This document shows positions 11,991 to 26,105 of a DNA stretch of 64,000 bases, one piece after another. The stretch lies in contig NZ_JAMQOT010000001.1 in assembly GCF_029502005.1 (NCBI RefSeq), positions 868,001 to 932,000 of the forward strand, in the 5' to 3' direction. Source of the DNA: Natrinema salsiterrestre (GTDB lineage: Archaea > Halobacteriota > Halobacteria > Halobacteriales > Natrialbaceae). How positions within the stretch are numbered: the first letter of the stretch is position 1; the number at the start of each line of letters is the position of its first letter. Under the pieces are notes generated by a model that was given only the letters and a program-made list of their open reading frames with translations, was not told the origin of the DNA and searched no databases. The position numbers were made by a program, and so were the translations under genes.

Positions 11991-12441
11991 TGCTCGAGTG
12001 GTAATACGTGACTACCGGCATAACCCTTCTGTTGTCTTCACTCGGAACCGAGTCAGGGCTCGTGACTGTCGACCGGATTCGCGATGAGGATCGTTTCGCG
12101 TGGACAAATCGATCGTTTCCGAGTTGACTACGGTCGGCGGATTCGGTCGTCGTGTCCCGTCTCGCTCGTCCCTCCCGAGCGGAATCGCCGCGTATCGGAC
12201 CGACCGTGCCCGCCGGGTTCGGTCGTCACCGAGGTACCTGTTCCCATCCCACATCAATATAAAAGCACCGTATCGCCAACCGACTGGGAACGAGTGACGA
12301 TCGAATTCGGTCGACGCAGTCCGTCACGATCACTGCGCAGTATGGCGTTTTCCGTCTCTTTCTCTGGCGTCACACCGCGCTCGTGATCGGAAGCGATTGG
12401 GAAACGTTTATGTAGAATCACAATCAATCAATCGACCGACT
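11991..12441. other. 450-bp intergenic region upstream of the thermosome gene
   Basis: No credible coding frame is seen. Two plus-strand TATA-like sites occur: CAATATAAAAG at about 12253-12263, which has no gene at the expected distance, and GTTTATGTA at about 12407-12415, which suits the thermosome start at 12442. The distal site could drive a longer leader, an upstream RNA or stress-induced transcription. The region is of mixed composition, with GC-rich blocks at 12150-12230. Confidence 0.45.
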
Positions 12442-14109
12442 ATGAGTCAGCGAATGCAGCAGGGGCAGCCGATGATCGTAATGAGCGAGGACTCCCAGCG
12501 CGTCAAGGACAAGGACGCGCAGGATTACAACATCAGCGCCGCCCGTGCGGTCGCTGAAGCCGTCCAGTCGACGCTCGGTCCGAAGGGCATGGACAAGATG
12601 CTCGTCGACTCCATGGGATCGGTGACGATCACCAACGACGGCGTCACCATCCTCAAGGAGATGGACATCGACAACCCGACGGCCGAGATGATCATCGAAG
12701 TCGCCGAAACCCAGGAGGACGAAGCGGGCGACGGCACCACGACGGCCGTCGCGATCGCCGGCGAACTCCTCAAGAACGCCGAGGACCTCCTCGAGCAGGA
12801 CATCCACCCGACGGCGATCATCAAGGGCTTCCACCTCGCCAGCGAGCAGGCCCGCGAGGAGATCGACGACATCGCGACCGACATCGACACGAGCGACGAG
12901 GAACTCCTCCGGAAGACCGCCGAGACCTCGATGACCGGCAAGGGCACCGAGGTCAACAAGGAGCACCTCGCACAGCTGATCGTCGAGGCCATCCGGCAGG
13001 TCACCGTCGAGGACGAGAACGGCGACAACGTCGTCGACCTCGAGTTCCTCAACATCGAGACCCAGACCGGCCGCAGCGCCGGCGAGTCCGAGCTCCTCGA
13101 GGGCGGCATCATCGACAAGGACCCCGTCCACGACAACATGCCCCGCTCGGCGGAGGACGCCAACATCCTGCTGCTCAACGAGGCCATCGAGGTCGAGGAG
13201 GCCGACGTCGACACCGAGGTCTCCGTCACCGACCCCGACCAGCTCCAGCAGTTCCTCGACCGCGAGGAGAAACAGCTCCGCGAGAAGGTCGATCGCATCG
13301 CCGACCTCGGCGCTGACGTCGTCTTCTGCCAGAAGGGCATCGACGACCTCGCACAGCACTACCTCGCGAAAGAGGGTATCCTCGCCGTGCGCCGCGCCAA
13401 GAAGTCCGACCTCGAGTTCCTGCAGGAGGTCGTCGGCGCGTCGATCGTCTCCGACCTCGAGAACGCGACCGAAGCGGATCTCGGCTTCGGCGACGTCACC
13501 CGCGACGAGGCCGACGAACTGTTCTACGTCGAGGGCGAGGACGCCCACGGCGTCACTCTCCTGCTCCGCGGCTCGACCGACCACGTCGTCGACGAACTCG
13601 AGCGCGGCGTCAACGACGCGCTCGACGTCGTCGCACAGACCGTCTCCGACGGCCGCGTCCTCGCGGGCGGCGGTGCGATCGAAGTCGAGCTCGCCTCGCG
13701 CCTGCGCGACTTCGCCGACTCCGTCTCCGGTCGCGAGCAGCTCGCCGTCGAGGCCTTCGCCGACTCGCTCGAGCTCGTCCCGCGCGTCCTCGCCGGAAAC
13801 GCGGGACTGGACTCGATCGACACGCTGGTCGATCTGCGCGCCGCTCACGACGACGGCCAGATCACCGCCGGCCTGAACGTCTTCTCGGGCGACGTCGAGG
13901 ACACGTTCGAGGCCGGCGTTGTCGAGCCGGCTCACGCCAAGGAGCAGGCTATCACGTCCGCCGCCGAAGCGGCCAACCTCGTCCTCAAAATCGACGACAT
14001 CATCTCCGCCGGCGACCTGTCGACCGACAAGGGCGACGACGAAGGCGGCCCCGGCGGTGCCCCCGGCGGCATGGGCGGCATGGGCGGCGGCATGGGCGGC
14101 ATGATGTGA
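12442..14109 (+). CDS. Thermosome (group II chaperonin) subunit
   Basis: ATP-driven cytosolic chaperonin subunit of 555 residues that assembles into double-ring complexes. The start at 12442 gives MSQRMQQGQPMIVMSEDSQR. The equatorial domain shows LGPKGMDKMLVDSMG and the catalytic GDGTTTAV nucleotide motif near residues 95-102. The apical domain includes NDGVTILKEMDIDNP context, DVVFCQKGIDDLAQHYLAK and RRAKKSDLEFLQEVVGA. The second equatorial half has VLAGGGAIEVELASRLRDF. The C-terminus ends in the Gly-Met repeat tail GGMGGMGGGMGGMM that projects into the cavity. Haloarchaea carry two or three paralogues (cct1-3/thsA-B), and this one cannot be assigned to a paralogue by eye. Stress induction is likely from the family. 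A structured repeat follows the stop by 2 bp. Confidence 0.95.
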   Translation: MSQRMQQGQPMIVMSEDSQRVKDKDAQDYNISAARAVAEAVQSTLGPKGMDKMLVDSMGSVTITNDGVTILKEMDIDNPTAEMIIEVAETQEDEAGDGTTTAVAIAGELLKNAEDLLEQDIHPTAIIKGFHLASEQAREEIDDIATDIDTSDEELLRKTAETSMTGKGTEVNKEHLAQLIVEAIRQVTVEDENGDNVVDLEFLNIETQTGRSAGESELLEGGIIDKDPVHDNMPRSAEDANILLLNEAIEVEEADVDTEVSVTDPDQLQQFLDREEKQLREKVDRIADLGADVVFCQKGIDDLAQHYLAKEGILAVRRAKKSDLEFLQEVVGASIVSDLENATEADLGFGDVTRDEADELFYVEGEDAHGVTLLLRGSTDHVVDELERGVNDALDVVAQTVSDGRVLAGGGAIEVELASRLRDFADSVSGREQLAVEAFADSLELVPRVLAGNAGLDSIDTLVDLRAAHDDGQITAGLNVFSGDVEDTFEAGVVEPAHAKEQAITSAAEAANLVLKIDDIISAGDLSTDKGDDEGGPGGAPGGMGGMGGGMGGMM

Positions 14110-14110
14110 G

Positions 14111-14225
14111 ACTAAATTTTGCTCTGCGGGCCAGCGCAGCTGGCCCTCGGCAAAATTTAGTATAAAAGCACTCCTCGCTCCCGACGGTCGCTCGTCGGCC
14201 CGAGCGCGGCTCCGCCGCGCTCGGT
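14111..14225 (+). repeat. Dispersed hairpin repeat, family 2, copy 1 (3' of thermosome)
   Basis: It begins immediately after the thermosome stop. The outer arms ACTAAATTTTGC (14111-14122) and GCAAAATTTAGT (14150-14161) are exact reverse complements. Inside is a second stem GGGCCAGC/GCTGGCCC with loop GCA. After the hairpin comes AAAAGCACTCCTC-CTCC, then GTCGGCCCG and another hairpin GAGCGCGGC/GCCGCGCTC. The same order occurs at 25836-25975 with compensatory stem changes. It may act as a transcription terminator or 3' RNA element; the AT outer stem followed by TATAAAA is terminator-like. Confidence 0.7.
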
Positions 14226-25255: not shown

Positions 25256-25451
25256 CGCAGCGGACTGAAGTCAGCGATGATTCGTGGCGGGTGCGTTCGG
25301 ATCCACCGCCCGTCGACGCCCTCTCGCTTTTCGATCCGACCCCCGAGCGAAAACGGACCGGATCGGCGGTCTCCCCCGCCCGAGGACCCATCAGACACCC
25401 GAAACGTCGGCTATGAAAAGAGGTAAACACTCCGCCGTGTTTCTTCGAGCC

Positions 25452-25835
25452 ATGAAGGAGTACAAGATGCGTCGCGGTGAATATCTCGAGGAGCGAATTC
25501 CGGACATGGAGGCCACCGTCGAGGACTACTTCGGCCCGATTACGGAGACCGAGGAGTACAAGGGCAACGACCTCCACGTGATCGGCGAGCCCGACAACCC
25601 GGTCTTCGAGAAAGTCGTCGTCGGCACCGTCGAATACTCCGGCAAGAAGGACAAGCTCGGCGTCGAGTTCTACGAACGCGACCCCACCGAGCTCGGTCCC
25701 GACGAACTCGAGGCCGCGGGCGAGGCCGTCGACGCGAAGAACGACTTCCTGCTCGAGGCGACCGGTCGCGACGCCAAGTCCCGTCGCGAATCGATGAAGC
25801 GGACGGTCGAAGACGATCCGGATCACGACTTCTAA
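25452..25835 (+). CDS. DUF5611 family protein
   Basis: A 127-residue protein of a family confined to haloarchaea. It begins MKEYKMRRGEYLEERIPDME and continues ATVEDYFGPITETEEYKGND, VFEKVVVGTVEYSGKKDKLG and a C-terminal helical part with DAKNDFLLEATGRDAKSRRE. An ATG at 25413 would add 13 residues; 25452 is preferred because the family-like sequence starts there. The fold appears alpha-beta with a Lys-rich hairpin. Function is unknown. A family-2 structured repeat starts directly after the stop codon. Confidence 0.82.
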   Translation: MKEYKMRRGEYLEERIPDMEATVEDYFGPITETEEYKGNDLHVIGEPDNPVFEKVVVGTVEYSGKKDKLGVEFYERDPTELGPDELEAAGEAVDAKNDFLLEATGRDAKSRRESMKRTVEDDPDHDF

Positions 25836-25975
25836 CGAAATTTTGCTCTGCGGGCCGCCTTCGGCGGCCCTCGGCAAAATTTCGATCAAAAGCACTCCTC
25901 CCTCCGTTCCAGGCGCTCGAGAGCGCCTTCCACATCGGTCGTCGGCCCGCTCGCTCGGCCTTCGGCCTCGCTCGC
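25836..25975 (+). repeat. Dispersed hairpin repeat, family 2, copy 2
   Basis: It starts directly after the DUF5611 stop. The outer arms are CGAAATTTTGC (25836-25846) and GCAAAATTTCG (25874-25884). The inner stem is GGGCCGCC/GGCGGCCC with loop TTC. AAAAGCACTCCTC-CTCC follows, then a variable hairpin AGGCGCTC/GAGCGCCT and GTCGGCCCG near 25940. Compared with copy 1 at 14111, outer arms and inner stem differ at paired positions, so pairing is kept while sequence changes. Confidence 0.7.
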
Positions 25976-26105
25976 GGTCGTCTCTGGTAACCGCCTGCCC
26001 TTCCCCGAGTCGAACGGCTCTCGCGTTGCTCGAGCCGTCCTCCCGGCCACGACGTTTTCGGTCGGCTTCGTAACGGCTTTGCTCGAGGCGTCGAACATCG
26101 CGACA

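Follow-up and report, generated by a model that had tools for sequence, protein, structure and literature searches.

What are the two similar hairpin sequences that directly follow a thermosome gene and a gene for a DUF5611 protein in Natrinema salsiterrestre, and what might they do there? In the window, i.e. the whole 64,000-nt stretch of DNA that was analysed (G000:C11:868001-932000 in genome numbering), a 19-nt core occurs twice as against 0.01 occurrences expected. The two copies and their host genes comprise the following features (HP, hairpin):

12397..14109, + strand: thermosome subunit gene, host of copy 1 (stop codon TGA at 14107-14109)
14111..14161, + strand: HP1 of copy 1, outer stem ACTAAATTTTGC/GCAAAATTTAGT, inner stem GGGCCAGC/GCTGGCCC, asymmetric internal loop TCTGC / TCG
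14164..14176, + strand: single-stranded box AAAAGCACTCCTC of copy 1, conserved in ~100 copies
14180..14225, + strand: downstream hairpins of copy 1, CCGACGG..CGTCGG and GAGCGCGGC..GCCGCGCTC
25413..25835, + strand: gene for a DUF5611 protein of 140 aa, host of copy 2 (stop codon TAA at 25833-25835)
25836..25884, + strand: HP1 of copy 2, outer stem CGAAATTTTGC/GCAAAATTTCG, inner stem GGGCCGCC/GGCGGCCC
25888..25901, + strand: box AAAAGCACTCCTCC of copy 2
25911..25928, + strand: HP2 of copy 2, a stem of variable sequence (AGGCGCTCGAGAGCGCCT)
25937..25975, + strand: conserved GGTCGTCGGCCCGCTCGC of copy 2, then HP3 (GCTCGCTCGGCC..GGCCTCGCTCGC)
25993..26048, + strand: last module of copy 2, with GCCTGCCCTTCCCCGAGTC, HP4 and CTCCCGGCC, the right end of the element; also present in f7

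The hairpin arms, the inner stems, and the AAAAGCACTCCTC box lie at both loci where the original prediction had placed them, and covariance models match HP1 of copy 1 (model R2, G000:C11:882111-882179) and of copy 2 (G000:C11:893835-893903). Both fold far better than shuffled sequence (z-scores of -5.2 and -6.3, respectively, over 71-nt stretches). The predicted compensatory changes in the arms are also borne out, in that outer-stem G-C in one copy is replaced by T-A in the other. Copy 2 had been given an extent of 25836-25975, and the hairpins are indeed found there, but it really runs on to ~26048, a fourth hairpin module (GCCTGCCCTTCCCCG...CTCCCGGCC) being part of it. Likewise, the downstream order of elements is retained between the copies only in part: copy 1 is a shortened version lacking HP2 and the last module. 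AGTCGTCGGCC is seen again in distant families.

The complete element is ~212 nt long and consists of HP1, a box, and up to three more hairpins, in the order HP1; ATC/ACC; AAAAGCACTCCTCC; HP2 (free sequence); CACATCAGTCGTCGGCCCGCTCGC; HP3; ~20 free nt; GCCTGCCCTCCCCCGRGTC; HP4; and CTCCCGGCC, after which similarity among copies stops, giving the element sharp ends. The outer stem of HP1 is made up of five variable pairs, TTTT/AAAA, and two further pairs; inward of it lie an asymmetric internal loop, whose region is invariant (TTTTRCKCTGC / CTCGGYAAAA), and an inner stem of free sequence. HP1 is flanked by a stop codon or tRNA end at left and by ACC/ATC AAAA at right. A CUCCUCC stretch, for which an anti-Shine-Dalgarno role was considered, varies in distant copies, and a TATA box in TATAAAAGC of copy 1 is not general, most copies having ATCAAAAGC, ACCAAAAGC, or ATGAAAAGC. 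Some copies depart from this plan. Two in the same genome (L013 and L014) and one in N. versiforme (L091) carry an extra hairpin pair (AGAGCGC..GCGCTCTTTTGG and CTCGCGG..CCGCTCAG) as a nested insertion that splits HP1's right arm between GCAAAATC and TTTCGATC, and a decayed copy behind the DUF5611 gene of N. gelatinilyticum (L126) has only the last module left (CCCGAGTCAG...CCTTCCCGGCC).

The element is a previously undescribed haloarchaeal family of RNA-like hairpin elements at gene ends. Rfam (release 15) returned no match in the whole window at the gathering threshold or in six element-bearing loci at E<=2, and no description of this hairpin family turned up in the literature searched; its absence from Rfam leaves it unannotated despite its size. 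In the N. salsiterrestre genome, a 78-nt query gave 39 BLAST matches including fragments, the 212-nt full element as query gave 45, and the final covariance model gave 24, i.e. ~24 copies. The genome search with a covariance model that had been proposed as a check also found the family, compensatory changes included, in related genomes: of 293 Halobacteriales genomes sampled, 147 contain it, as do 47 of 87 genera (first model, E<=1e-3), counts that are minima as 17 candidates were scored per genome. Among the listed genomes of the phylum outside Halobacteriales no element was found, and all 12 genomes with matches belong to Halobacteriales. Copies per genome range from 0 to 27 (N. versiforme, 27; Haloterrigena salina, 17; Halomarina halobia, 14; Natronococcus pandeyae, 11), with none in Haloferax larsenii, Halomicrobium katesii, Halosimplex, or Natronomonas aquatica.

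Selection of the copies studied was by model score. Pairing was counted in 100 copies from many genera anchored on invariant letters only. The outer pair at -4/+4 is G-C in 48 copies, C-G in 23, A-T in 12, and T-A in 10, so that 93 of 100 are Watson-Crick (shuffled mean 34, maximum 48). The corresponding figure at -5/+5 is 94 of 100, and at -6/+6 it is at background level, a sharp stop of pairing; a C.C mismatch at -2/+2 is retained in 51 of 100 copies. In the structure count, 95.8% of cells are paired and the covariation score is 0.394 (0.082 when shuffled, <=0.062 with the partner slid), although this score comes from an alignment fitted to the model, and the sequence-anchored count is the cleaner test. 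Copy number, covariation, and placement rule out a chance palindrome.

Compensated arms can, however, also arise through mutation alone, by template-switch events of the kind apparent in L211 and L269, where the right half has been copied to the left, and in L272, where the left has been copied to the right. The element could accordingly be a palindrome acting at the DNA level, as a cruciform or chromosome-protein site, compensated by arm copying rather than by selection on RNA. These three copies look exactly as arm copying would make them, and the inner hairpin of L017 has been turned round. Yet arm copying would erase the asymmetric loop, which almost no copy has lost; the element keeps one orientation relative to transcription; and the distal part of the element is single-stranded and directional. 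We thus regard a DNA-level palindrome as scarcely probable at all. Selection seems instead to keep the loop, because it persists in almost all copies though arm copying erases it and a few copies have become perfect palindromes, bearing in mind that the copies were found with a loop-favouring model and loop-less ones may be under-counted. Such invariance suggests recognition by a protein.

The position of HP1 was examined in 87 copies, which come from six families and include both distant and related genera. In 66 of them it starts -3 to +6 nt from the stop codon that closes an open frame of 80 or more codons, compared with 3.7% of random nearby positions drawn independently of genome annotation; all 21 copies tested in the N. 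salsiterrestre genome lie -4 to +5 nt from the stop. In several copies, stop-codon bases are inside the stem and matched by the far arm. HP1 may also begin at the end of a tRNA gene, namely tRNA-Ala (L215) and an intron-containing tRNA identified by eye (L235). In L222 and L230, the 3' ends of tRNA-Lys and tRNA-Leu are duplicated ~100 nt apart before the element, as after mobile-element integration. Element orientation follows the host gene, and convergent gene pairs can bear two opposed copies, one per gene (L194, L203, L204, L252, and L253). The gene that follows runs convergently in 11 of the 21 copies and co-directionally in 10; it lies at least 195 nt past the box in 20, with genes called by codon statistics rather than annotation, which indicates that elements end transcription units. 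The exception is a copy between gyrB and gyrA, ~78 nt from box to gyrA.

Two further observations concern gene ends. In G200, three copies (L258, L260, and L261) are not behind a recognisable gene and have ~55 nt upstream in common (TTATTCAGAA...CCGGTCAC..CACGTG); each might be an independent RNA gene driven by a promoter of its own. Thermosome thsB 3' ends without the element in other families (L323, L325, L326, and L319) often have another palindrome where the stop codon lies; in TGAAATCAG...CTGATTTCA, for instance, the stop codon is part of the stem. These palindromes may make up a second family of hairpins next to stop codons.

So close a hairpin might act on translation by stalling the terminating ribosome, as has been reported for some Escherichia coli REPs within 15 nt of the stop codon (work cited in PMC12306157). 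The -3 to +6 position of HP1 falls inside that distance, and the stop-codon bases within stems fit as well. Copies directly after tRNA genes, however, make a purely coding or translational role unlikely, and stalling requires no conserved loop, box, or further hairpins; we judge translational control to be very unlikely. Selected structure, transcript orientation, and location at the ends of transcription units, including tRNAs, point rather to the RNA 3' end as the site of action.

The hosts are mostly core genes, such as those for the thermosome, PAN, GyrB, TFS, uL16, eS8, eS19, EF-1beta, SUI1, DP2, and topoisomerase I; host names not backed by a cited family search come from C-terminal fragments or from reading translations. 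Further hosts are Cdc6 and a beta-CASP nuclease. The latter (L237, 573-1472, - strand), of the beta-CASP/RMMBL type, belongs to the same protein family as the archaeal termination factor aCPSF1/FttA. Relatives of 13 of the 21 N. salsiterrestre host genes are hosts in other genera (e.g. PAN, GyrB, DP2, uL16, and geranylgeranyl reductase). The thermosome is the commonest recurring host, with nine further copies in f1, f5, f7, and f12, and the only two copies in genome G039 are behind its two thermosome genes. Matches at the DUF5611 gene were found at ten Natrinema or near-Natrinema loci and at none in other genera. A DUF5611 protein with 94% identity, together with the named relatives, puts the window close to N. 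versiforme.

Copies at the same gene are more alike than chance within one family (0 of 2000 label shuffles), implying that they are inherited with the host gene inside that family; between families they are no more alike than other copies. At the thsB locus, the element is present in some species of a genus and absent in others. A single ancestral set of fixed positions was rejected on both counts, as some congeners (in f7, f6, and f12) have the element at a locus that is empty in others and same-gene copies from different families show no special likeness. Near-identical copies at unrelated genes of one genome (L231/L232 and L260/L261) indicate recent dispersal. From these sequence comparisons, the element appears to be gained and lost repeatedly at preferred gene ends and inherited in between.

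Such dispersal is the part of the predicted mobility that stands: near-identical copies at unrelated genes and presence or absence among congeners are seen, but no usual target duplication, parent transposon, or transposase was found. The elements might still be selfish or neutral mobile elements (MITE, PATE or REP-like) that insert at gene ends since they are harmless there, a reading that would account for the L231/L232 pair, the patchy presence at one locus, the range of copy numbers, and the sharp ends. Against it, Y1 tyrosine transposase (PF01797) has 0 matches in the copy-rich N. salsiterrestre genome, in which it is therefore not needed, or in that of Halovivax (G134, 17 copies); the full-length search for a transposon parent in the former gave element-sized copies and fragments alone. 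Ordinary short target duplications were not seen at element copies, orientation relative to the gene is fixed, the same genes serve as hosts in different families, each copy is passed on together with its gene inside a family, and the element is rare on plasmids, where eight haloarchaeal records match, mostly in part. We consider purely selfish or neutral mobility rather unlikely. At L197 (~935-1215), a direct duplication of ~65 nt (GCTCCCCGAGTCGAGCGTCGGTCACCCGAATCCGTCC...CCGTCTCGTACT) flanks the element on both sides and may record insertion or tandem duplication.

The other part of the prediction, a 3' regulatory element, is well supported by gene-end placement, fixed orientation, covariation, and recurrence at core hosts. 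We therefore favour, at about even confidence, a transcript 3'-end element that would combine a hairpin-type terminator with a 3' stabiliser and has spread to new gene ends. As polymerase passes the coding or tRNA end, HP1 would fold right behind it, starting from the stop codon or tRNA 3' end. HP1 and pyrimidine-rich unpaired stretches (CACUCCUCC, later CCUGCCCUCCCCC) would halt polymerase inside the element, perhaps with aCPSF1/FttA; a protein would recognise the invariant asymmetric loop, and the message would be left with a stable hairpin as 3' cap. Rare duplication at the DNA level would carry the element to new gene ends, with copies kept mainly behind core genes.

A terminator role is plausible by analogy: in Haloferax volcanii, hairpin S12 terminates 59% of transcripts in vivo, and processing products were sought in the S12 test and none found (PMC7237163). 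The element is not a bacterial-type intrinsic terminator, because no T-tract follows HP1 and the sole sense-strand T-run is the TTTT in its 5' arm. Nor does it have the archaeal T-tract of at least five T at the 3' end, which occurs within 100 nt in just 10 of 108 copies. T-runs of at least five within 200 nt of the stop were found in 13% of genes with the element versus 38% of thermosome orthologs lacking it (Fisher p 0.004), a comparison of many element-bearing genes with orthologs of one gene; the element would seem to take the place of the usual T-tract terminator.

Besides the missing T-tract, two observations count against this 3'-end reading. Full termination at the gyrB-gyrA copy would cut the operon, and the absence of the family from half of the sampled genomes implies that the element is dispensable. 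HP1 might instead be an mRNA stabiliser alone, blocking 3'-to-5' exonuclease while 3' ends are made elsewhere without termination. That would suit the gyrB-gyrA copy, a very stable hairpin at the message's very end, and covariation without fixed stem sequence; a bare stabiliser, however, would need neither an invariant internal loop nor a conserved unpaired box, and it fits poorly with the depletion of usual T-tracts downstream and with copies at tRNA genes, so that we think it unlikely. The combined terminator and stabiliser remains our preferred account, in which the element most likely helps to finish and protect the host gene's transcript. Tentatively, and with clear doubt, we extend it to a Halobacteriales-wide, protein-recognised hairpin signal for 3' ends that lies behind mRNAs and tRNAs, is spreading, and replaces T-tracts at core genes.

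T-tracts and aCPSF1/FttA are thought to be the main basis of archaeal termination. If this reading is true, a conserved element under selection for structure, found at core-gene ends in half of the sampled haloarchaea, would amount to a second kind of 3'-end signal, and sister species with and without it at the same gene provide a natural experiment.

How, then, does the element compare with known systems? It resembles REP/BIME sequences with their RAYTs in being an imperfect, extragenic palindrome whose internal loop is conserved and which exists in tens of copies at gene 3' ends, some REPs lying <=15 nt from the stop codon (PMC12306157). Unlike these, it carries neither a GTAG nor a CGTC tag at the base of HP1, has no RAYT-type gene beside it in the N. 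salsiterrestre genome as a whole, and is ~212 nt long with several hairpins, fixed in orientation, and retained at orthologous genes. With haloarchaeal PATEs, SMRs, and MITEs (PMC3119063), it shares being short, non-coding, dispersed, and palindromic, without ordinary target duplication, but it sits at gene ends in transcript orientation, needs no Y1 transposase, occurs in many families, and is inherited with its host gene. Classical MITEs differ in having terminal inverted repeats and short duplications, neither of which is seen here: the ends CGAAATTTTGC and CTCCCGGCC are not mutual inverted repeats. Finally, haloarchaeal termination signals (T-stretches and the S12 hairpin, which terminates in vivo in Haloferax; PMC7237163) likewise stand at the ends of transcription units, whereas the element lacks a T-tract after its hairpin and is a conserved sequence family with an invariant loop.
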